Below are positions 50,397 through 62,433 of a stretch of 64,000 nt of DNA, piece by piece. The stretch spans positions 4,278,001 to 4,342,000 of the forward strand of contig NZ_CP109078.1 in NCBI RefSeq assembly GCF_035917455.1. The letters run 5' to 3'. The notes below the pieces were generated by a model. It was not told the origin of the DNA. It did not search any database and saw only the letters and a list, made by a program, of their open reading frames with translations. This stretch comes from Micromonospora sp. NBC_01796. GTDB taxonomy: Bacteria; Actinomycetota; Actinomycetes; Mycobacteriales; Micromonosporaceae. How positions within the stretch are numbered: the stretch's first letter is position 1; the number at the start of each line of letters is the position of its first letter. The position numbers were made by a program, and so were the translations under genes.

Positions 50397-50795
50397 TCAG
50401 GCCGGCTGGGTCCGGGGCTGGATCAGGTCCCACCGGTTGCCGTACAGGTCCTCGAAGACGGCCACCGAACCGTACGGCTCGTGCCGGGGCGGTTCGGCGA
50501 ACCGTACGCCGGCCGCCGCCATCCGCCCGTGGTCCCGCTCGAAGTTGTCGGTGTTCAGGAACAGGGCCACCCGCCCGCCGGTCTGGTCACCGACCCGGGC
50601 GGCCTGCTCCGGCCCCGCCGCGCGGGCCAGGAGCAGCGCGGTCTCGGTCGAGCCGGGTGGGGCGACCACCACCCACCGGGTGCCGTCACCGCGCGGGGTG
50701 TCCTCGACCAGCCGGAAGCCGACCCGGTCGACGTAGAAGGAGATGGCCTCGTCATAGTCGCGGACGACGAGGGTAACCAGTCCGAGATGTGGCAT
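50397..50795 (-). CDS. VOC-family (glyoxalase-like) protein
   Basis: 132 residues. LVTLVVRDYDEAISFYVDRV with GFRLVEDTPRGDGTRWVVVA and VAVFEDLYGNRWDLIQP make one vicinal-oxygen-chelate module, usually forming a dimer that binds a metal and small substrates. It is in the glyoxalase/bleomycin-resistance superfamily; the substrate is unknown. ATG 50795. Confidence 0.93.
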   Translation of the reverse strand: MPHLGLVTLVVRDYDEAISFYVDRVGFRLVEDTPRGDGTRWVVVAPPGSTETALLLARAAGPEQAARVGDQTGGRVALFLNTDNFERDHGRMAAAGVRFAEPPRHEPYGSVAVFEDLYGNRWDLIQPRTQPA

Positions 50796-50908
50796 CCCTT
50801 CATGATCGCCGGTCGCTCCGACGGGCCGGCGACGGGGGAGCGGGGCAGATATCCGGCCGAATGCGGATTGGCGAGGATTCTTCGCACCCGGTTTGGGTAG
50901 ATGGCCGG

Positions 50909-52285
50909 ATGCGATTGATTCGCGGTTGGCGTGGGGCGCGCCCGGCGGCCAGGCCGAACGGCGGCGCGCCGAGGCCGGCGACGTGGGACCCGTACGCCTC
51001 GGCGGGGGTTCCGTCCGAGCGTCGGCACGCTCCGCCGGAGCGGCCCGCACGGGTGGTGATCATCTCGGCCAGCGCGGGCGCCGGGCACGAGGGCGCGAGC
51101 CGCGAGCTGGCGCACCGGCTGCGGAGTCGGGGATTCGAGGTCGACTGTCGGGACCTGGCGGACATCTTCCCGTACGGGCTCGGCAAGCTCCTGCGGGGCA
51201 CCTACCACGGGATGTTGAGCAGGTTCCCGTGGATCTACGGGTCGCTGTTCGCGATCGGCTGCAACTTCACCGGCGCCGGCCCGATCACCCGGGCACTGCT
51301 CCGCCCGGTCCGGGCACAGGTGCGGCAACTGGTCGGACCGGACACCAGGGCGGTGGTCTCGACCTACCCGATCGCCACCCAACTGCTCGGGCCGCTGCGC
51401 CGCAAGGGCCAGCTCGGCGTACCGGTGATCACGTACCTGACCGACTTCGCGGTCAACCCGCTCTGGGTCTCGCCCGGTGTGGACGTCTACTGCGCCGCGC
51501 ACCCGACCAGCCGGGGTCAGGCCCGTGCGCTCGGCGCGACCGAGGTACGGGTGGTCGGCCGGCTCGTCTCGGCCGGCTTCGGTCCCGGTACGGCACAGGC
51601 CCGGCGACACGCCCGGGAACACTTCGGTCTGCCGGCACAGGGACGGCTCGCCCTGCTGGTCGCCGGCTCCTGGGGGGTCGGCGAGGTGGCCACCACCGCC
51701 GCCGAGATCGCCCGGACCGGAGTCGCCACCCCGGTGGTCGTCTGCGGACACAACGAGGCGCTCTACCGCCGGCTGCGCCGCCAGCGGGTGGCCCACGTCT
51801 TCGGCTGGGTCGACGACATGCCCGCGCTGCTGCAGGCCGCCGACGTACTGGTCGAGAACGCCGGTGGGCTGACCGCGCTGGAGGCGATGGCCAGCGGACT
51901 GCCGGTCGTCACCTACCGGCCGATCCCCGGTCACGGTCGGGCCAACGCCGTCACGATGGCGCAGGCCGGCATGGTGAGCTGGGTGCGTCGGGCCGAGGAC
52001 CTGGGACCGGCCCTGGTGGAGCTGACCGACGGCGTACGCGGCCGTGAGCAGCGCGACGCCGGCCTGGAACTGTTCGAATCCGACCCCGCCCGGGTGGTGG
52101 CCGACGTCGCTCGGGGAGTGGAGGCGCTGCCGAACCCGTTGCCCCGGCCGTCGTCGCGTACCCGTGGCGGGCGCGGTCGCCGGGCCCGTCGGGCCGGGGT
52201 GCTGGTCTGCCTCGCGGTCGCCGCACTGAACTGGTACGCACACCACCACGCCCAGCAGCCGACGCCACCGGGACGACGCCGGTGA
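50909..52285 (+). CDS. GT28-type glycosyltransferase (MGDG-synthase/processive lipid type)
   Basis: 458 residues from ATG 50909; the frame is open further upstream. The N-terminal half VVIISASAGAGHEGASRELA and the diacylglycerol glucosyltransferase-type region (FPWIYGSLFAIGCNFTGAGP) are followed by a nucleotide-sugar-binding C-terminal half (VENAGGLTALEAMASGLPVV). The pattern matches the MurG/MGDG-synthase clan; it probably glycosylates a lipid. A late hydrophobic helix (ARRAGVLVCLAVAALNWYAH) may anchor it. Confidence 0.88.
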   Translation: MRLIRGWRGARPAARPNGGAPRPATWDPYASAGVPSERRHAPPERPARVVIISASAGAGHEGASRELAHRLRSRGFEVDCRDLADIFPYGLGKLLRGTYHGMLSRFPWIYGSLFAIGCNFTGAGPITRALLRPVRAQVRQLVGPDTRAVVSTYPIATQLLGPLRRKGQLGVPVITYLTDFAVNPLWVSPGVDVYCAAHPTSRGQARALGATEVRVVGRLVSAGFGPGTAQARRHAREHFGLPAQGRLALLVAGSWGVGEVATTAAEIARTGVATPVVVCGHNEALYRRLRRQRVAHVFGWVDDMPALLQAADVLVENAGGLTALEAMASGLPVVTYRPIPGHGRANAVTMAQAGMVSWVRRAEDLGPALVELTDGVRGREQRDAGLELFESDPARVVADVARGVEALPNPLPRPSSRTRGGRGRRARRAGVLVCLAVAALNWYAHHHAQQPTPPGRRR

Positions 52286-53158: not shown

Positions 53159-53328
53159 CCCGGCGCGATCGGAACCTGAAACAGACTTCGCCGGCCTCAC
53201 CGTCCAAGCGGGTGAAGTTGGGTACGCTCAGTCACGACTACTTAGCGCGAGTGATGGGTTACTGACATCTGGTGCGGCGGTCCCGGCCGGCTCGCGTCGA
53301 CAGGTGGACTCTGCGCGAGAGGCTGCAT

Positions 53329-54468
53329 GTGCTCGAATTGACCGGCAACGTCTCCAGCCAGCCGCCCGGGGATCCAGCCGCCCGGCCGCCCGGGGATCCG
53401 TCCGCGCTGCGACGGCTCCCGGACACCGCGCTGTCCGGTGAGAACTTCCCGGTTGCCCTGCGGATCCTGCCCGGCGCCATCCGCCGGCACCTGCTGGCCC
53501 TGTACGGGTACGCCCGCTACGTGGACGACCTCGGTGACGAGCCCGTACCGGCACAGGGCCGGGAACCCGCCCGCGACCCGATCAGCGAGCCACCCCGCGA
53601 CCCCGGCAGCCCGCCGCCGCAGGACCCGAACAGTCCGCCCGCCCGCGATCCGGGCAGCCCACCCGCCCGCGACCCGATCAGCGTCCCGCCCCAGGACCCG
53701 AACAGCCCGCCCGCCCGCGACCCGGCACCCGGATCCCTGCGCACCGGGCCGTACGACACACCGGACGGGTGGTACGACATACCGGCCGCCCGGTCGGCGG
53801 CACTGCACCGGTTCGAGGACGAACTCCTGGCCATGTACGCCGGCCACCCGCCCACCCACCCGGTGCTGGTCGCACTCGCCCCGACGGTGGCCGATCGGGG
53901 GCTGCCGATCGAACCACTGCGCCGACTCATCGCCGCCAACCAGCGCGACCAGGTGGTGCACCGCTACGACACGTACGACGAACTGGTCGACTACTGCCAC
54001 CTGTCGGCCGACCCGGTCGGCGAGCTGGTGCTGCACCTCTTCGGGGCCCAGTCGCCCCGGCGGATCGCCCTGTCCGACCGCATCTGCACCGCCCTCCAGG
54101 TGGTCGAACACCTCCAGGACGTCGCGGAGGACTACCGCCGGGACCGGATCTACCTGCCCCGGACCGACCTGGACCGGTACGGCGTGGCGCCGGACGACCT
54201 GGCCGCGCCGTACGCCGGTGACGGGCTCCGGGCGGTGATCCGGTTGCAGGCGGCACGCGCCACCGCCGCCCTGGACGACGGCGCGCCGCTGGTCGGCGAG
54301 TTGCACGGCTGGGCCCGGTTGGCGGTCGCCGGCTACCTCGCCGGCGGACGGGCGGCACTGGCCGCACTGGCCCGCTCCGACCACGACCCGCTGAGCCGGG
54401 TACCCCGGCCGACCCGGGCCGGCACCGCCGGGCAGTGGCTCAAGACCCTGATCGCGAGGCCCGGATGA
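53329..54468 (+). CDS. hpnC: Hydroxysqualene synthase HpnC with internal proline-rich insert
   Basis: 379 residues from GTG 53329, where GAGAGG lies six bases upstream; GTG 53272 is an in-frame alternative. HpnC converts presqualene diphosphate to hydroxysqualene in bacterial squalene synthesis. The prenyl-synthase fold is intact, with ARYVDDLGDE (first Asp motif) and LQDVAEDYRRDRIYLP (second). Between them, residues about 72-150 are a repeat insert of RDPGSPPA/QDPNSPP units (24-bp period) not expected in the family. The first gene of the hopanoid operon. Confidence 0.9.
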   Translation: MLELTGNVSSQPPGDPAARPPGDPSALRRLPDTALSGENFPVALRILPGAIRRHLLALYGYARYVDDLGDEPVPAQGREPARDPISEPPRDPGSPPPQDPNSPPARDPGSPPARDPISVPPQDPNSPPARDPAPGSLRTGPYDTPDGWYDIPAARSAALHRFEDELLAMYAGHPPTHPVLVALAPTVADRGLPIEPLRRLIAANQRDQVVHRYDTYDELVDYCHLSADPVGELVLHLFGAQSPRRIALSDRICTALQVVEHLQDVAEDYRRDRIYLPRTDLDRYGVAPDDLAAPYAGDGLRAVIRLQAARATAALDDGAPLVGELHGWARLAVAGYLAGGRAALAALARSDHDPLSRVPRPTRAGTAGQWLKTLIARPG

Positions 54469-55358
54469 CCGCCCCCGGCCGGATCGCCGGCTCTCCGCTG
54501 GACCTGGCCTACCGGGAGTGCGAACGGATCACCCGGACCGAGGCCCGGAACTTCTCGTACGGCATCCGCCTGCTCCGGCCCGAGCGGCGCGGCGCGCTCT
54601 GCGCGGTCTACGCGGTGGCCCGCCGGATCGACGACATCGGCGACGGCGACCTGCCACCGGCGGCCAAGGTCGCCCGACTCGACCAGGTACGGGCGGCGCT
54701 GCACCAGTTGCCCGAGGCCGGCGGCGACCCGGTCCTGCTCGCGCTCGCCGACTCCGGTGACCGGCTGCCGATCCCGCTGCCGGCGCTGGACGAGATCGTC
54801 GACGGCTGCCTGGCCGACGTCCAGGGCACGGTGTACGACACGTTCGACGACCTGGTCGGCTACTGCCGTCAGGTGGCCGGCTCGGTCGGCCGGCTCTCGC
54901 TCGGTGTCTTCGACGTCCGCCCGAACGTGCCCCGTACCGTCGCCAGCGAGCTGGCCGACACCCTCGGCATCGCCCTGCAACTCACCAACATCCTCCGGGA
55001 CATCGTCGAGGACCGCGGCAACGGCCGGGTCTACCTGCCGCGCGAGGACCTGGACCGGTTCGGGTGCACGCTGACTCCCGGCATCGACGGAGGTCTCGCC
55101 GACCCGCCGGACCGGCTCGCCGAACTCGTCCGCTGGCAGGCGCAGCGGGCCGAACGCTTCTACCGGACCGGGCTGCGGCTGCTGCCGCTGCTCGACCGGC
55201 GCAGCGCCGCCTGCGTCGCGGCGATGGCCGGCATCTACCACCGGCTGCTGGCCCGGATCGTCGCCGACCCGCTGGCGGTCACCCGGCGCAGGGTCTCCCT
55301 GCCCGGCTGGCAGAAGGCGTACGTGGCGGCGCGGGCGATGACCCGGAGCAGCGCGTGA
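54465..55358 (+). CDS. hpnD: Presqualene diphosphate synthase HpnD
   Basis: 297 residues. It condenses two farnesyl diphosphates to presqualene diphosphate. Motifs are ARNFSYGIRLL, ARRIDDIGDGD, the second Asp motif LTNILRDIVEDRGNGRVYLP and LPGWQKAYVAARAM. Starts at ATG 54465, overlapping hpnC by four bases. A clean-length member of the squalene/phytoene synthase family. Confidence 0.95.
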   Translation: MTAPGRIAGSPLDLAYRECERITRTEARNFSYGIRLLRPERRGALCAVYAVARRIDDIGDGDLPPAAKVARLDQVRAALHQLPEAGGDPVLLALADSGDRLPIPLPALDEIVDGCLADVQGTVYDTFDDLVGYCRQVAGSVGRLSLGVFDVRPNVPRTVASELADTLGIALQLTNILRDIVEDRGNGRVYLPREDLDRFGCTLTPGIDGGLADPPDRLAELVRWQAQRAERFYRTGLRLLPLLDRRSAACVAAMAGIYHRLLARIVADPLAVTRRRVSLPGWQKAYVAARAMTRSSA

Positions 55359-56704
55359 ACGGCGAACAGGTCTGCGTCGTCGGTGGCGGCCTGGCCGGCA
55401 TCGCCGCCGCACTGCGCCTGATCGACGCCGGGGCGCGGGTCACCCTGCTCGAGGCCCGGCCGGAGCTGGGCGGGGCCACCTACTCGTTCCGCCGGGGCGA
55501 CCTCGTGGTGGACACCGGCCAGCACGTCTTCCTCCGCTGCTACCACGAATACCGGCACCTGCTCGACCGCCTCGGTACGGCCGGCGACGCGCACGTGCAG
55601 GACGTGTTCGCGGTGCCGATCCTGCGGGTCGGCGTACCGCCGCACCTGCTCACCCGTACCCGGCGACTGCCGGCACCGGCGCACCTGCTGCCGGCCCTGA
55701 TCAACTACCGGCCGTTGCGGATGGGGCAGCGGATCGCCGCGATCCGGGGCGCCGCCGCGCTGCGTACCGTCGACCCGGACGACCCGGCCAACGACAACGT
55801 CAGCTTCGGCGACTGGCTGACCCGGCACGGCCAGGACGCGCCGACCGTACGCCGGTTGTGGGAGCTGATCTGCGTCGCGGCGCTGAACGCGCCGCCGCAC
55901 CTGGCGTCGCTCGCGCTCGCCGCGCGGGTGTTCCGGACCGGGCTGCTCGACCGGGCCGACGCCGGTGACATCGGCCGCCCGACGGTGCCGCTGTCCGAAC
56001 TGCACGGTGAACCGGCCCGTGCGCTGCTGCGCCGGGTCGGCGGCACCGTCCGGACCGGGGTCAAGGTCCGCGAGATCGCCCCCGACCGGGGCGGGTTCCG
56101 GGTCACCGCCGACGGGGTACGCCTCACCGCCGACGCGGTGGTGCTGGCCGTCCCGCACCCGCAGGCGGCCCGGCTGGTGCCGCCCCGGGCGGCCCCGGAC
56201 CGGGAGCGCTGGGCCGGGCTGGGCGCCGCACCGATCGTCAACGTGCACGTGCGCTACCGGGAGCGGGTCACCGACCTGGAGTTCGCCGCGGCGTTGGACA
56301 ACCCGGTCCAGTGGGTCTTCGACCGCACCCCGCCCGGTGTCCGGGGCCAGTACCTGGTCACCTCCATCTCGGCGGCGGAGACCGTACTGCGGACGCCGTC
56401 GGCGGAACTGGGCCGCAGCCAGGTCGCCGCGTTGGCGGACCTCTTCCCGGCGGCGCGGCGGACCCCGGTACGGGACGTGTTCGTGACCCGCGAGCCCCGG
56501 GCGACCTTCCGGCAGGGACCCGGCACCCGCCGGGACCGGCCGGCAGCGGGTACCCGGCTGCCCGGGATGGTGCTGGCGGGGGCGTGGACCGACACCGGAT
56601 GGCCGGACACGATGGAGGGCGCGGTACGCAGCGGCCGGCAGGCCGCCGACGTTGTGCTCGCCCATCTCGGGTCGAAGACGAGTACGACGGAGGCGCTGAG
56701 ATGA
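55355..56704 (+). CDS. hpnE: Hydroxysqualene dehydroxylase HpnE
   Basis: 449 residues. FAD-binding Rossmann motif VCVVGGGLAGIAAALRLIDA with ARVTLLEARPELGG at the N-terminus, and a C-terminal PGMVLAGAWTDTGWPDTMEG pattern shared with phytoene desaturase-type oxidoreductases. In squalene synthesis it reduces hydroxysqualene to squalene. GTG 55355 overlaps hpnD by four bases. Confidence 0.95.
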   Translation: MNGEQVCVVGGGLAGIAAALRLIDAGARVTLLEARPELGGATYSFRRGDLVVDTGQHVFLRCYHEYRHLLDRLGTAGDAHVQDVFAVPILRVGVPPHLLTRTRRLPAPAHLLPALINYRPLRMGQRIAAIRGAAALRTVDPDDPANDNVSFGDWLTRHGQDAPTVRRLWELICVAALNAPPHLASLALAARVFRTGLLDRADAGDIGRPTVPLSELHGEPARALLRRVGGTVRTGVKVREIAPDRGGFRVTADGVRLTADAVVLAVPHPQAARLVPPRAAPDRERWAGLGAAPIVNVHVRYRERVTDLEFAAALDNPVQWVFDRTPPGVRGQYLVTSISAAETVLRTPSAELGRSQVAALADLFPAARRTPVRDVFVTREPRATFRQGPGTRRDRPAAGTRLPGMVLAGAWTDTGWPDTMEGAVRSGRQAADVVLAHLGSKTSTTEALR

Positions 56705-57750
56705 CCATGACCTTGCCTGGCTTCCTGGCCGAGGTGGACACGCTCGTGCAACCCGAGATCCGGGCGGCGCTCGACCGGATCGACGAACGCACCCGGCTCA
56801 CCGCCGGCTACCAGCTCGGCTACTGGGACGCCGAGGGGCAGCCGACCACCCGGGGAGGTGGCAAGGGGCTGCGACCGGCCCTGGTGCTGCTCTCCGCGCG
56901 GGCCGCCGGCAAGACCGCCGAGGACGCGCTGCCCGGCGCGGTGGCGGTGGAGCTGGTGCACAACTTCTCCCTGCTGCACGACGACGTGATCGACGGCGAC
57001 GCGGAACGGCGACACCGGCCGACCGCCTGGGCCGCGTTCGGCATCGGCCCGGCGATCCTGGCCGGTGACGCGCTGCTCAGCCTCGCCGGGGACGTGCTGT
57101 CGGCGATGCCGGGACACGGCGGCACCTGGGGGCTGCGCTACCTGAACGCGGCGGTACGCCGGCTGATCGCCGGCCAGGCCGCCGACGTGGCGTTCGAACA
57201 CCGGGACACGGTCACCCTGGACGAGTGCCTGACCATGGCCCGGGACAAGACCGCCGCGCTGCTCTCCTGCTCCGCGACCCTGGGCGCGGTCCTCTGCGGC
57301 GGCCCACCCGCCCTCACCCTGGGCCTGGCCCTCTACGGTGACCGGCTCGGTCTCGCCTTCCAGCTCGTCGACGACCTGCTCGGGATCTGGGGCGAACCGG
57401 CGGTGACCGGCAAGCCGGTCCTGTCCGACCTGGTGGCGCGGAAGAAGTCGGTCCCGGTGGTACGCGCCCTCACCGCCGGCGGTACCGCCAGCGACCAGCT
57501 CCGCGAGCTGTACGCCACACCGGGCGAGCTGTCCGCCACCGACCTGACCCTGGCCGCCACCCTGATCGAGGAGACCGGCGCCCGGGACTGGACCGAGAAG
57601 GAGGCGGACCGACTGCTCACCGAGGCCCTGGCCGAACTGGACCGGCTGACCGAACTCGGCGCGGCCGGCGGACCGGACGCGAACACGGTGGCCGACGTAC
57701 ACCGGGAACTGGTGGAGATCGCCCGGTTCATGACCGGTAGGGACCACTGA
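56701..57750 (+). CDS. Polyprenyl (farnesyl/geranylgeranyl) diphosphate synthase
   Basis: 349 residues. The first Asp-rich motif HDDVIDGDAERRHRP and the second FQLVDDLLGIWG are intact, with GGGKGLRPALVLLSARAA and AFEHRDTVTLDECL. It makes the prenyl diphosphate for the operon, most likely farnesyl diphosphate, although chain length cannot be read safely. ATG 56701 overlaps hpnE by four bases. Confidence 0.93.
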   Translation: MTMTLPGFLAEVDTLVQPEIRAALDRIDERTRLTAGYQLGYWDAEGQPTTRGGGKGLRPALVLLSARAAGKTAEDALPGAVAVELVHNFSLLHDDVIDGDAERRHRPTAWAAFGIGPAILAGDALLSLAGDVLSAMPGHGGTWGLRYLNAAVRRLIAGQAADVAFEHRDTVTLDECLTMARDKTAALLSCSATLGAVLCGGPPALTLGLALYGDRLGLAFQLVDDLLGIWGEPAVTGKPVLSDLVARKKSVPVVRALTAGGTASDQLRELYATPGELSATDLTLAATLIEETGARDWTEKEADRLLTEALAELDRLTELGAAGGPDANTVADVHRELVEIARFMTGRDH

Positions 57751-59894
57751 TGGCCACCGCCCGCTCCGAGTCCGGCGTCGACGGGGCCGTCGAACTCGGC
57801 GTCGAGCAGGCCGTCGACCTGGCCGTGGCCGAAGCGGTCGACTCGGCCGTGGTGCCCGGCATCGGCGCGGCGGCCGAAACCCCCGGCGTCGGCGCGCCCG
57901 GCGACACCCCGCCGGGCCTACCGACCGGCGGCGACCGTACGCGGCGGTTGGGCGAAGCGCTCGGCCGGGCCCGGGAGCACCTGCTCGCCGGCCAGGAACC
58001 GGGCGGGTGGTGGCAGGGGGAACTCGCCACCAACGTGACCATGGAGGCCGAGGACCTGCTGATGCGGCAGTTCCTCGGCATCCGTACCGAGGAGGAGACC
58101 GAGGCCACCGCCCGGTGGATCCGCAGCCAGCAGCAACCCGAGGGAAGCTGGGCCAACTTCCACGGTGGACCCGGCGACCTCTCCACCACCATCGAGGCGT
58201 ACGCGGCGCTGCGGCTGGCCGGGGACCGGGCCGACGACCACCACCTGCGCCTGGCCCGCGAGTTCGTCCTCGCCCACGGGGGCATCGAACGCAGCCGGGT
58301 CTTCACCCGGATCTGGCTGGCCCTGTTCGGCGAGTGGTCCTGGGACAAGGTCCCGGCGGTCCCGCCGGAGGTGGTGCTGCTGCCGTCCTGGGTGCCGCTG
58401 AACGTCTACGACTTCGCCTGCTGGGCCCGGCAGACCATCGTGCCCCTGTCGATCGTCCGGGCCCTGCGCCCGGTCCGCCCGCTCGGCTTCGCCCTGGACG
58501 AGCTGCGTACGGGTGTCCGTACGGCACCGGTCACCTCGCTGCGTACGCGTGCCGGCTGGTTCCAGCGCCTCGACGGGGCGCTGCGCGGGTACGAGCGCCG
58601 CCCGGTCCGTGCCGTACGCCGCAACGCCCTGCGCCGGGCCGCAGAGTGGATCGTGGCCCGGCAGGAGGCGGACGGGTCCTGGGGCGGCATCCAGCCCCCG
58701 TGGGTCTACTCCCTGATCGCGCTGCACCTGCTCGGTTACCCGCTCGACCACCCGGTCCTGCGTACGGGCCTGGCCGGGCTGGACCGGTTCACCGTGCGGG
58801 AGGCGTCCCCGGAGGGTGAACTGCGCCGGCTGGAGGCGTGCCAGTCACCGGTCTGGGACACCGCGCTCGCGGTGACCGCGCTCGCCGACGCCGGCCTGCC
58901 CGGCGACCATCCGGCCCTGGTCCGGGCCAACCGCTGGCTGCTCGACGAGGAGATCCGGGTCGGCGGCGACTGGGCGGTACGCCGGCCGGACCTGCCGCCG
59001 AGCGGGTGGGCGTTCGAGTTCGACAACGACGGTTACCCGGACACCGACGACACCGCCGAGGTCCTGTTGGCGCTGCGGCGAAGCGACGGCGACCCGCGTA
59101 CGGCGGAGGCCCTGGAACGGGGCGAGCAGTGGCTGCGCGGGATGCAGTGCCGTGACGGTGGCTGGGGCGCGTTCGACGCCGACAACACCCGTACGATCGC
59201 CCGCGAGCTGCCGTTCTGCGACTTCGGTGAGGTGATCGACCCGCCGACCGCCGACGTCACCGCGCACGTGGTGGAGGCGCTCTGCGCCCGTGGACCGTCC
59301 GACACGGCGGCGGTCCGGCGCGGGGTGGGATGGCTGCTGCGGGCCCAGGAACGCGACGGCTCCTGGTTCGGCCGCTGGGGCGCCAACCACGTCTACGGCA
59401 CCGGCGCGGTGGTGCCCGCACTGGTCGCGGCGGGCCTCCCGGTCGACGATCCGGTGATCGTACGCGCGGTCGGGTGGCTGCACCGGGCCCAGAACCCGGA
59501 CGGCGGCTGGGGTGAGGACATGCGGTCGTACCGGGACCGGTCCTGGCGGGGTCGGGGCGACTCGACCGCGTCGCAGACCGCCTGGGCGCTGCTGGCCCTG
59601 CACGCCACCGGGGCCGGCGACAGCGCACCGGCCCGGCGGGGTGTCGACTGGCTGCTGGCGACCCAGCGTCCCGACGGTGGTTGGGACGAGCCGCAGTACA
59701 CCGGGACCGGCTTCCCCGGTGACTTCTACATCAACTACCACCTGTACCGGCTGGTCTTCCCGATCAGCGCCCTCGGCCGCATCCTCGCCGGCCTCACCGG
59801 CGCGGACACCCCGGCCACCGGGGCGGTCACCCTGACCACCGGCGCGGACGCCTCGGTCACCGCCGCCTCGGATCCGGTACGGGGGCGCGGGTGA
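57750..59894 (+). CDS. shc: Squalene-hopene cyclase
   Basis: 714 residues. It cyclises squalene to hopene at the membrane. Catalytic DTDD motif at residues 431-434 (GYPDTDDTAEVLLAL), with several QW repeats (QQPEGSWANF, QEADGSWGG, CRDGGWGAFD, QERDGSWFGRW, QNPDGGWGED, QRPDGGWDE). The N-terminal 60 residues are an Ala/Val-rich extension with repeated (V/A)xxAV pieces absent from most cyclases, and the last 30 residues are Thr/Ala-rich. It overlaps the upstream gene by one base. Confidence 0.96.
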   Translation: MATARSESGVDGAVELGVEQAVDLAVAEAVDSAVVPGIGAAAETPGVGAPGDTPPGLPTGGDRTRRLGEALGRAREHLLAGQEPGGWWQGELATNVTMEAEDLLMRQFLGIRTEEETEATARWIRSQQQPEGSWANFHGGPGDLSTTIEAYAALRLAGDRADDHHLRLAREFVLAHGGIERSRVFTRIWLALFGEWSWDKVPAVPPEVVLLPSWVPLNVYDFACWARQTIVPLSIVRALRPVRPLGFALDELRTGVRTAPVTSLRTRAGWFQRLDGALRGYERRPVRAVRRNALRRAAEWIVARQEADGSWGGIQPPWVYSLIALHLLGYPLDHPVLRTGLAGLDRFTVREASPEGELRRLEACQSPVWDTALAVTALADAGLPGDHPALVRANRWLLDEEIRVGGDWAVRRPDLPPSGWAFEFDNDGYPDTDDTAEVLLALRRSDGDPRTAEALERGEQWLRGMQCRDGGWGAFDADNTRTIARELPFCDFGEVIDPPTADVTAHVVEALCARGPSDTAAVRRGVGWLLRAQERDGSWFGRWGANHVYGTGAVVPALVAAGLPVDDPVIVRAVGWLHRAQNPDGGWGEDMRSYRDRSWRGRGDSTASQTAWALLALHATGAGDSAPARRGVDWLLATQRPDGGWDEPQYTGTGFPGDFYINYHLYRLVFPISALGRILAGLTGADTPATGAVTLTTGADASVTAASDPVRGRG

Positions 59895-61429
59895 CCGGGC
59901 TCGGCGAACGAACCGACCGGGCCGGCGACTGGGTGCTCTTCGCCCCGATGCGGATGGAGGCGCACGCGTTGCGTCGTGCCCTGCCGTCGGGCGTGCCGCT
60001 GCGGCGTACCGGTCGGGGGTTGCTCCGGGCCACCCGCGCCGCCGCCGGTTACGGCGAAACCTCGGCCCTCGCGGTCGCCGGGATCGCCGGTGGCCTCGAC
60101 CCGGCGCTGCGCCCTGGTGACGTGGTCGTCGCCACCGAGGTACGCCGGGACAGCCGGACCGGGGACGAGGCGCTGCCCTGCCCGTCCGCGCCGATGATCG
60201 CCGCCGCGCTGCGCCGGCAGGGGCTCACCGTGCACCTGGGACCGGTGGTGAGCAGTGACCGGCTGGTCGACGGCGCCGATCGGGCCCGGCTGGCGGCCAC
60301 CGGCGCACTGGCCGTGGACACCGAGTCGTCCGCGCTGCTGGCGGGCCCACCGGGGAGGCCCACCGCCTGCGTACGGGTGATCGCCGACGTGGCGCCGGAG
60401 CCCCTGTTCCGGGCGGCGACCCTGGGTCGGATCGCGACCGCGCTGCGGACCCTGACCCTGGTCGGGCCGGTCCTGACCGAGTGGGCGGCGGCGACCACCG
60501 TACGGGAGGTGGTGCTGGCCGCGCCCCGGTCGTTCTGCGCCGGGGTGGAACGAGCCATCGCCGTGGTCGAGCAGGCCCTGGACCGGCACGGCGCCCCCGT
60601 GTACGTCCGCAAGCAGATCGTGCACAACACGCACGTCATCGACGACCTGAGCCGGCGGGGTGCGGTCTTCGTGGACGAGCTGACCGAGGTGCCGGACGGC
60701 GCGGTCACGGTCTTCTCCGCACACGGCGTCTCGACCGAGGTACGCGAGACCGCCGCCGCCCGTGGGCTGCCGGTGATCGACGCGACCTGTCCACTGGTGA
60801 CGAAGGTGCACAGCGAGGCCCGCCGGTTCACCGGACAGGGCCGTACGGTGCTGCTGATCGGTCACGCCGGACACGAGGAGACCGAGGGGACCCTCGGCGA
60901 GGTCCCGGGCGCGATCACCCTGGTGCAGAGCCCCCTGGAGGCCGAACGGGTCGAGGTCCCCGACCCCGGCCAGGTCTCCTACCTCGTGCAGACCACCCTG
61001 GCGGTGGACGAGGTGAGCGGGGTCCTGGACGTGTTGCGCCGCCGCTTCCCGGCACTGACCGGGCCCTCCTCGGACGACATCTGCTACGCCACCACCAACC
61101 GCCAGGTCGCGCTCCGGGCGATCGCCGACGAGGCGGACCTGGTCCTGGTGGTCGGCTCGGCGAACTCGTCGAATTCGCTCCGGCTGGTCGAGGTGGCCAG
61201 CCGGGCCGGTACCCCCGCCCACCTGGTCGACGACGTCGGCTCGGTGGACCTGCGTTGGCTCGCCGGTGTCCGCACCGTCGGTGTCACCGCCGGGGCGTCA
61301 GCCCCGCCGCACCTGGTCGACCAGACCGTGGCGGCGCTGGTCGGGCTGGGCGCGCAGGCCGTACGGGAACGCACGACCAGTACCGAAGATGTGCACTTCA
61401 CCCTGCCGAAGGAGAAACGTCCGCGATGA
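59891..61429 (+). CDS. ispH: HpnG-like nucleosidase fused to IspH (HMB-PP reductase)
   Basis: 512 residues in two parts. Residues 1-195 are a phosphorylase/nucleosidase domain (WVLFAPMRMEAHALRRALPS, VAGIAGGLDPALRPGDVVVA, AVDTESSALL) as in HpnG, which cleaves adenine from adenosylhopane. Residues 205-512 are a complete IspH with the three Fe-S cysteines Cys216 (PRSFCAGVERA), Cys300 (DATCPLVTKVH) and Cys398 (DDICYATTNRQVA). IspH makes IPP and DMAPP from HMB-PP. The joint is uninterrupted. The usual genes are separate, so this is a fusion. It overlaps shc and hpnH by four bases each. Confidence 0.92.
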   Translation: MTGLGERTDRAGDWVLFAPMRMEAHALRRALPSGVPLRRTGRGLLRATRAAAGYGETSALAVAGIAGGLDPALRPGDVVVATEVRRDSRTGDEALPCPSAPMIAAALRRQGLTVHLGPVVSSDRLVDGADRARLAATGALAVDTESSALLAGPPGRPTACVRVIADVAPEPLFRAATLGRIATALRTLTLVGPVLTEWAAATTVREVVLAAPRSFCAGVERAIAVVEQALDRHGAPVYVRKQIVHNTHVIDDLSRRGAVFVDELTEVPDGAVTVFSAHGVSTEVRETAAARGLPVIDATCPLVTKVHSEARRFTGQGRTVLLIGHAGHEETEGTLGEVPGAITLVQSPLEAERVEVPDPGQVSYLVQTTLAVDEVSGVLDVLRRRFPALTGPSSDDICYATTNRQVALRAIADEADLVLVVGSANSSNSLRLVEVASRAGTPAHLVDDVGSVDLRWLAGVRTVGVTAGASAPPHLVDQTVAALVGLGAQAVRERTTSTEDVHFTLPKEKRPR

Positions 61430-62433
61430 GTATGCCGTTGCGTCAGAGCATCCGGGTCGGCCGCTACCTGGTCGGGCAGAAGCTGCGTCGTAAGCAGTAC
61501 TTCCCGCTGTTGGTGGAGTTGGAGCCGCTCTTCGCCTGCAACCTCGCCTGCGCCGGTTGCGGGAAGATCCAGCATCCGGCCGACGTGTTGAAACGCCGGA
61601 TGCCGGTGGAGCAGGCGGTCGGCGCGGTGATGGAGTCCGGTGCGCCGATGGTCTCGATCGCCGGTGGCGAGCCCCTCATGCACCCGCAGATCGAAGTGAT
61701 CGTCAACGAGTTGGTCAAGCGCCGCAAGTACGTCATCCTCTGCACCAACGCGGCCCTGCTGACGAAGAAGTTGGACAAGTTCCGGCCGTCGCGGTACTTC
61801 TCGTTCGCCGTGCACATCGACGGGCTGAAGGAGCGGCACGACGCCTCGGTCTGCAAGGAGGGCGTCTTCGACGAGGCGGTGGCGGCGATCAAGGAGGCCA
61901 AGCGACGCGGCTTCCGGGTCACCAGCAACACCACGTTCTTCTCCACCGACACCCCGCAGACGGTGATCGAGGTGCTCGACTACCTCAACGACGATCTCGC
62001 CGTCGACCAGATGATGCTCTCCCCGGCGTACGCGTACGACAAGGCGCCGGACCAGGAGCACTTCCTCGGGGTGCAGGAGACCCGGTCGATGTTCAGCAAG
62101 GCGTTCGGGGACGGGCGGCGGCGCAAGTGGCGGCTGAACCACTCGCCGCTGTTCCTGGACTTCCTGGAGGGGAAGGTCGACTTCCCGTGCACCGCCTGGG
62201 CGATCCCGTCGTACTCGCTGTTCGGGTGGCAGCGCCCGTGTTACCTGATGAACGACGGCTACACCAAGACGTACAAGGAGTTGATCGAGACCACCGACTG
62301 GGAGAGTTACGGTCGGGGCAAGGACTCCCGGTGCGCCAACTGCATGGCCCACTGCGGGTACGAGCCCACCGCCGTCCTGGCCACCATGAACTCCCTGACC
62401 CAGTCCATCCGGGCGCTCCGCTCGACGAGCTGA
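61426..62433 (+). CDS. hpnH: Adenosyl-hopene transferase HpnH (radical SAM)
   Basis: 335 residues. Radical SAM cysteines are Cys38, Cys42 and Cys45 in ACNLACAGCGK, with GGEPLMHP and a C-terminal Cys-rich SRCANCMAHCGYEP. It joins an adenosyl radical to hopene, the first step of extended hopanoids. Last gene of the operon; ATG 61426 overlaps the fusion gene. Confidence 0.96.
   Translation: MSMPLRQSIRVGRYLVGQKLRRKQYFPLLVELEPLFACNLACAGCGKIQHPADVLKRRMPVEQAVGAVMESGAPMVSIAGGEPLMHPQIEVIVNELVKRRKYVILCTNAALLTKKLDKFRPSRYFSFAVHIDGLKERHDASVCKEGVFDEAVAAIKEAKRRGFRVTSNTTFFSTDTPQTVIEVLDYLNDDLAVDQMMLSPAYAYDKAPDQEHFLGVQETRSMFSKAFGDGRRRKWRLNHSPLFLDFLEGKVDFPCTAWAIPSYSLFGWQRPCYLMNDGYTKTYKELIETTDWESYGRGKDSRCANCMAHCGYEPTAVLATMNSLTQSIRALRSTS

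Follow-up and report, generated by a model that had tools for sequence, protein, structure and literature searches.

The HpnG-IspH fusion gene and its operon

The window analyzed here is a stretch of 64,000 bp of the Micromonospora sp. NBC_01796 genome (G000; 8.56 Mb in one contig), spanning positions 4278001-4342000 of contig 1. At its end is a hopanoid operon transcribed in one direction, with hpnC, hpnD, hpnE, a polyprenyl diphosphate synthase gene, the squalene-hopene cyclase gene (shc), a gene in which an HpnG-like nucleosidase is fused to the isoprenoid enzyme IspH, and hpnH. The fusion gene (59891-61429; forward strand, as are all genes of the operon) is a frame of 512 codons with a GTG start that is open throughout, and it contains an HpnG-like nucleosidase domain (59927-60493, residues 13-201) and an IspH domain (60503-61420, residues 205-510). 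It is linked to shc by a GTGA overlap (59891-59894) and to hpnH by an ATGA overlap (61426-61429), the four-base overlaps given in a preliminary description made from the sequence alone. That description also reported one frame without a frameshift at the joint and a complete IspH half with three iron-sulfur (Fe-S) cysteines (C216, C300 and C398), and both points hold: 68 further different sequences carry the same fusion, the Pfam LYTB match over residues 207-483 scores 294.9 bits (cut-off 24.5), TIGR00216 scores the IspH half at 292 (cut-off 187.85), and the cysteines are conserved without exception across 38 aligned fusions. The N-terminal half matches Pfam PNP_UDP_1 over residues 47-169 (43.7 bits; cut-off 25.1), and its E23, E145 and D166 correspond to E12, E174 and D197 of the E. 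coli methylthioadenosine/S-adenosylhomocysteine nucleosidase (MTAN).

The two halves meet in the segment W198-C216 (60482-60538), where the last HpnG helix (residues 175-201) is followed by the first IspH strand (206-211) with no real linker between them. Of 69 fusions, 68 have a spacing of 18 residues from W198 to C216 and the remaining one has 19; so constant a length across a range of organisms suggests that the fusion arose once and that the halves are held in a defined geometry. A frameshift, a missed stop codon or a sequencing artefact is ruled out, as 69 different sequences carry the fusion with an almost constant joint length.

The other operon genes are recognizable by their family matches. 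The first, hpnC (53272-54468; TIGR03464, 272.7 bits), has a repeat-coded insert; a tandem array at 53566-53724 with periods of 24-72 bases encodes a proline-rich repeat. It is followed by hpnD (54435-55358; TIGR03465, 278.1 bits, just under the cut-off of 278.6), hpnE (55358-56704; TIGR03467, 413 bits) and the polyprenyl diphosphate synthase gene (56701-57750; PF00348, with NF041169 at 397 bits, below its cut-off of 450); the starts of the last two were picked in this analysis. The flanking genes of the fusion are shc (57750-59894; TIGR01507, 762 bits) and hpnH (61426-62433; TIGR03470, 519 bits), which encodes the radical S-adenosylmethionine adenosylhopane synthase, and after hpnH there is a short-chain dehydrogenase gene on the opposite strand. 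Upstream of the operon, at 50789-52285, is a glycosyltransferase gene with weak similarity to monogalactosyldiacylglycerol synthases.

Distribution of the fusion

The preliminary description proposed a search for the two-domain architecture in actinobacterial genomes, and this shows the full-length fusion in 39 of 296 genomes drawn evenly from the window's own class; hpnH is present in 70 of the 296, including all 39. A fusion was counted if the match extended from query residue ≤57 to ≥508 with at least 498 bits and no stop codon, and weaker rows (e.g. G021, G101, G132 and G236) were excluded. In a draw across the phylum the fusion is in 5 of 396 genomes, the window's own and four outside its class. 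The nearest named relatives are in Plantactinospora (79-80% identity), and two congeners have full-length copies with 91 and 94% identity; other carriers include Parafrankia, Pseudofrankia, Amycolatopsis and Pseudonocardia. Of 582 loci, 80 were retained, and all of these have actinobacterial names, as judged from their titles. Near-copies are present among the 69 fused rows, 16 of which fall in one tight clade with Parafrankia and Pseudofrankia, and rows do not equate to events; identical sequences (L128, L141 and L086) were removed before trees and residue counts were made, and one row (L130) is a stand-alone HpnG without IspH. The fusion is thus real, conserved and widespread in Actinomycetota, and its recurrence in congeners, relatives and 39 class genomes rejects the idea that it is a recent oddity of one genome.

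The 31 class genomes that have hpnH and no fusion comprise 24 of one family (f20, a single genus) and seven others. Fourteen regions were sampled from them, and 13 show a stand-alone HpnG gene beside hpnH, with none seen there in the remaining one (L160). The order shc-hpnG-hpnH is recognizable by similarity in nine of the 14, hpnG being in the slot of the fusion gene; in two others (L151 and L152) no shc was seen in the examined stretch. Where IspH and hpnH occur together (62 locus rows, counting repeats of the same place), 61 have an in-frame adjoining HpnG, and in the single exception (L076) the locus is truncated at a contig end.

Catalytic residues, selection and predicted structure

The three Fe-S cysteines align with C12, C96 and C197 of E. 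coli IspH and are invariant in all 69 fusions. The same is true of the equivalents of H41, H74, H124, E126, T167, T168, S225, N227 and S269, and the twelve residues are also identical in 29 of 29 unfused IspH proteins of the second lineage described below and in 32 of 32 housekeeping IspH proteins. We take these twelve positions to be those of the Fe-S cluster and of the site for the substrate, hydroxymethylbutenyl diphosphate (HMBPP). On the nucleosidase side, the equivalents of MTAN E174, D197 and R193 are present in all 69 fusions and in 13 of 13 stand-alone HpnG proteins, and that of E12 is present in 67 of 69 and 12 of 13, respectively. In L042 and L061, which matched only over residues 104-508 and 59-508, the catalytic N-terminal glutamate is absent from the extracted frame, which may reflect a broken gene, a frameshift, another start or the alignment.

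Ratios of nonsynonymous to synonymous substitution rates (dN/dS, NG86 method) among three congeners are 0.15-0.21 for the nucleosidase, 0.10-0.13 for the IspH half and 0.06-0.15 for the stand-alone IspH, and between two Plantactinospora they are 0.11 for the nucleosidase and 0.18 for the IspH half. Judged by these ratios, both domains are under purifying selection among congeners, and from their residues both halves are probably active.

An AlphaFold model of the fusion was built from an alignment of 38 sequences, consisting of the window protein and 37 sequences from the 49 fused loci (L014-L061 plus L070; those left out are L032, L037, L042, L044, L047, L050, L051, L052, L055, L060, L061 and L070). 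The model has a mean predicted local distance difference test score of 88.5 and a predicted template modelling score of 0.85, with block means of 95-96 over residues 181-210, and the joint is predicted with high confidence to be ordered, helix 175-201 running into the IspH strand from residue 206. The modelled IspH half superimposes on E. coli IspH structures from its first strand to its end (51-53% identity, root-mean-square deviation 1.4-1.5 Å), and the modelled N-terminal half has an MTAN/purine nucleoside phosphorylase fold, matching MTAN structures from an E value of 4.4e-10. Thirteen stand-alone actinobacterial HpnG proteins align into the last HpnG helix, to near their own C-terminal ends. 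We note that PDB entry 9ql0 (2026) is titled as E. coli IspH crystallized with adenosine hemisulfate, and that the fused partner handles adenosine chemistry; this is perhaps chance.

The fused IspH is a second copy from a separate lineage

The Micromonospora genome also has a stand-alone IspH gene (contig 1, 3862076-3863143), whose product is 53% identical to the fused IspH. At least two IspH genes (PF02401) are present in 46 of the 48 fusion genomes counted (L055 is not among them), and the proposal that the fusion is the sole IspH of the cell is rejected. The preliminary description held that a separate ispH together with an inactive fused domain would undermine its interpretation; the separate copy exists, and there is no sign of inactivity. 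In the other two genomes, a 3.0 Mb metagenome bin (L034) and Microbispora triticiradicis (L049, 8.1 Mb), the search returned the fused IspH alone. Two other Microbispora (L037 and L044) have two IspH genes, and L049 represents either an assembly gap or a natural test of whether the fused copy suffices. IspG is single in 40, double in eight and absent from one of 49 fusion genomes, and Dxs is single in 38 with more copies in 11; in the Micromonospora genome IspH is doubled, and IspG and Dxs are single. IspH is therefore the precursor enzyme most regularly doubled with the fused cluster.

A tree built from 65 of the 132 rows places the fused IspH domains and a set of unfused extra IspH proteins in one lineage apart from housekeeping IspH (support 100/100), the fused domains falling outside the housekeeping actinobacterial clade (100/100). 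Nine positions distinguish the two lineages, including A270 beside the site residue S269. The unfused set is from 30 loci (L062-L093 without L070 and L076) and contributes 29 different sequences to a quick tree of all 132 rows. No shc, hpnH or hpnG was matched in these loci, and in 29 of the 30 (the exception is L091) there is a polyprenyl synthase gene nearby, mostly ~1 kb upstream. Three of them were scanned for encapsulins, and all three have family 2B shell genes upstream (758-782 bits). The encapsulin loci are at L062:4521-8619, L065:4977-8845 and L081:4891-6324, with two shell genes in L062. That a polyprenyl synthase gene and its neighboring IspH gene were transferred together from such loci is mostly rejected, as the two groups of synthases separate: the hopanoid polyprenyl synthase is a lineage of its own in 43 of 46 fused-cluster rows, and those of the other three (two Prauserella and Speluncibacter) group with the encapsulin-side synthases.

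Other precursor genes in hopanoid clusters

IspH is the only gene of the methylerythritol phosphate (MEP) pathway in the window's cluster, as seen within the window, and the single dxs and ispG genes of the genome are elsewhere. In ten of 49 fused loci (L035, L038, L041, L043, L048, L052, L055, L057, L058 and L059) a dxs homologue is directly after hpnH, and in four of these, all Nocardia, ispG follows too; in a further fused cluster (L164) dxs is located upstream of hpnC. Among clusters lacking the fusion, five of seven f20 regions have ispG and dxs after hpnH, and in seven regions outside f20 neither gene is in the examined stretch. Because dxs and ispG lie beside hpnH in both fused and unfused clusters, we conclude that hopanoid clusters collect different parts of the MEP pathway, with IspH entering as a fusion to HpnG.

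Proposed function and alternatives

We think it likely, from the residues and gene context, that the fusion gene encodes one bifunctional enzyme dedicated to hopanoids, combining HpnG with a second IspH. The N-terminal half would strip adenine from adenosylhopane, acting after HpnH, and the C-terminal half would convert HMBPP to isopentenyl and dimethylallyl diphosphates, providing C5 units for the squalene and hopene made by the operon. These two reactions are not consecutive, and no intermediate would be handed between the sites; the protein would instead feed the start of the pathway and trim its end. With a single operon controlling both, the fusion would hold the two enzymes at a 1:1 ratio, and the short ordered joint would give a set geometry between the halves. 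The structural relatives of HpnG form oligomers, and if HpnG does so too then the fusion would make IspH oligomeric as well. We infer both activities, the dedication to hopanoids, the geometry and the oligomeric state. The preliminary description proposed that the fusion couples precursor supply to hopanoid synthesis, and a dedicated supply is likely because the main catalytic residues of both domains are kept, both are under purifying selection among congeners, and dxs and ispG are neighbors in part of the clusters. Its further suggestion of localization in a complex is a guess.

Several observations weigh against a dedicated bifunctional enzyme. First, the N-terminal half scores 74.9 bits with the NCBIfam HpnG model TIGR03468, below the cut-off of 187.1. 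No genome of the 296 in the class sample reaches that cut-off, even where a stand-alone hpnG adjoins hpnH, and the low score therefore reflects the model rather than the window protein. The earlier assignment as an HpnG-like nucleosidase is borne out by fold, catalytic residues and the slot beside hpnH and is corrected only in degree by the score; we keep the term HpnG-like, the name HpnG being based on gene position, on the fold and on a weak model score. Second, there are substitutions near both active sites. The window protein has T in place of MTAN M173 and A in place of S196, and near the IspH site S72, T100, S226 and S228 vary only or mostly in fusions (S72 is A in 25 of the 69, S226 in 15 and S228 in six, and T100 is variable), with S226 retained in the window protein. 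Third, comparison of the window with Plantactinospora mayteni gives higher dN/dS values (nucleosidase 0.36, IspH 0.23). Fourth, hopanoid clusters in general can do without the fusion, which 31 of 70 hpnH genomes lack, and 39 of 49 fused loci have no dxs or ispG in the stretch after hpnH, some of these stretches being short (<170 bases were covered in L014 and L049). Fifth, if the L034 and L049 assemblies are complete, the fused copy would be the general enzyme there. Finally, one origin is compatible with the trees and weakly supported by them, a single fusion clade having a bootstrap of 37 and a Shimodaira-Hasegawa-like approximate likelihood ratio test (SH-aLRT) value of 83 in the tree of 65 rows, and an SH-aLRT of 89 in a quick tree of all 132 rows, with L076 inside.

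Among the alternatives, the one that survives best, if on balance unlikely, is that the fusion is a frozen accident of the operon, in which an ispH2 had newly arrived next to hpnG, the two reading frames merged, and co-expression alone matters. The tight four-base overlaps on both sides, trees compatible with one origin, and the unfused MEP genes adjoining hpnH in other clusters are all as it would have them. However, none of the 62 locus rows has hpnG and ispH2 as separate neighbors beside hpnH, and the joint length hardly changes, whereas a neutral join is expected to split or drift. Somewhat more doubtful is that the fusion anchors IspH in a complex of hopanoid enzymes for local handover of C5 units or electrons, which would add to a dedicated bifunctional enzyme rather than oppose it. 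The identical joint length in 68 of 69 fusions, the helix modelled with high confidence as running into the first IspH strand, and the doubling of IspH (46/48) more often than IspG (8/49) or Dxs (11/49) are consistent with such anchoring, but the two reactions are at opposite ends of the pathway and the model is of a single chain.

We regard it as very unlikely that the IspH half has been repurposed to reduce ribosylhopane to bacteriohopanetetrol, giving two successive hopanoid steps in one protein. The enzyme for this reduction was called still unknown in 2017 in an excerpt of PMC5462960. IspH has as its fusion partner the presumed ribosylhopane-forming enzyme, nine positions including A270 separate its lineage, and S72, T100 and S226 vary within the fusions. 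Yet the twelve HMBPP-site residues are unchanged in 69 of 69, the closest relatives are in loci without matched shc, hpnH or hpnG, the dxs and ispG neighbors point to precursor supply, and 31 of 70 hpnH genomes do without the fusion. Least probable of all is a catalytically dead IspH half serving as partner or scaffold, which the separate IspH in 46 of 48 fusion genomes would permit but which is at odds with the invariant cysteines and pocket residues and with purifying selection that is, among congeners, similar to that on the stand-alone IspH.

If both halves of the putative bifunctional enzyme work, many actinobacteria would tie the Fe-S enzyme that ends C5-unit synthesis to hopanoids, through a copy other than the housekeeping one. 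This raises the question of whether a lipid pathway owns part of its isoprenoid supply and whether IspH is the limiting step. Terpenoid engineering would gain a naturally occurring variant of IspH, and attention is drawn to a second lineage of the enzyme, some of whose members are found in encapsulin loci.

Comparison with known systems

No HpnG-IspH fusion model is among 11 NCBIfam matches, and no description of the fusion turned up in the titles or opening abstract lines of the papers that searches of open-licence PubMed Central brought up. Fusions of related kinds are known. The bifunctional IspH/30S ribosomal protein S1 (NF000907) also joins IspH to another protein, with a different partner, and IspDF is described in an excerpt of PMC13001223 as a fusion of MEP enzymes that joins non-consecutive steps. 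Excerpts of PMC5462960 and PMC5472815 describe hopanoid clusters of Acidobacteria and Burkholderia with ispH alongside shc and hpnH, or as hpnABH/ispH; ispH is named there as its own gene, whereas in the window it is part of the HpnG gene. The family 2B encapsulin loci are similar in having an unfused IspH of the same lineage directly after a polyprenyl synthase, and a 2021 encapsulin survey (PMC8346489, excerpt) states that polyprenyl transferase systems often encode genes for terpenoid precursor synthesis; in contrast, no encapsulin is among the annotated genes of the window operon. The N-terminal half resembles HpnG (TIGR03468, the hopanoid-associated phosphorylase/nucleosidase) in its slot beside hpnH and its MTAN-type residues, and differs in scoring under the cut-off, as do all class matches, and in having no stop codon before ispH. 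The C-terminal half shares with E. coli IspH its fold, 51-53% identity and the twelve site residues, but is fused to a nucleosidase and comes from a second lineage, distinct from that of the housekeeping copy. Both components are known, and their combination as HpnG-IspH appears to be new.

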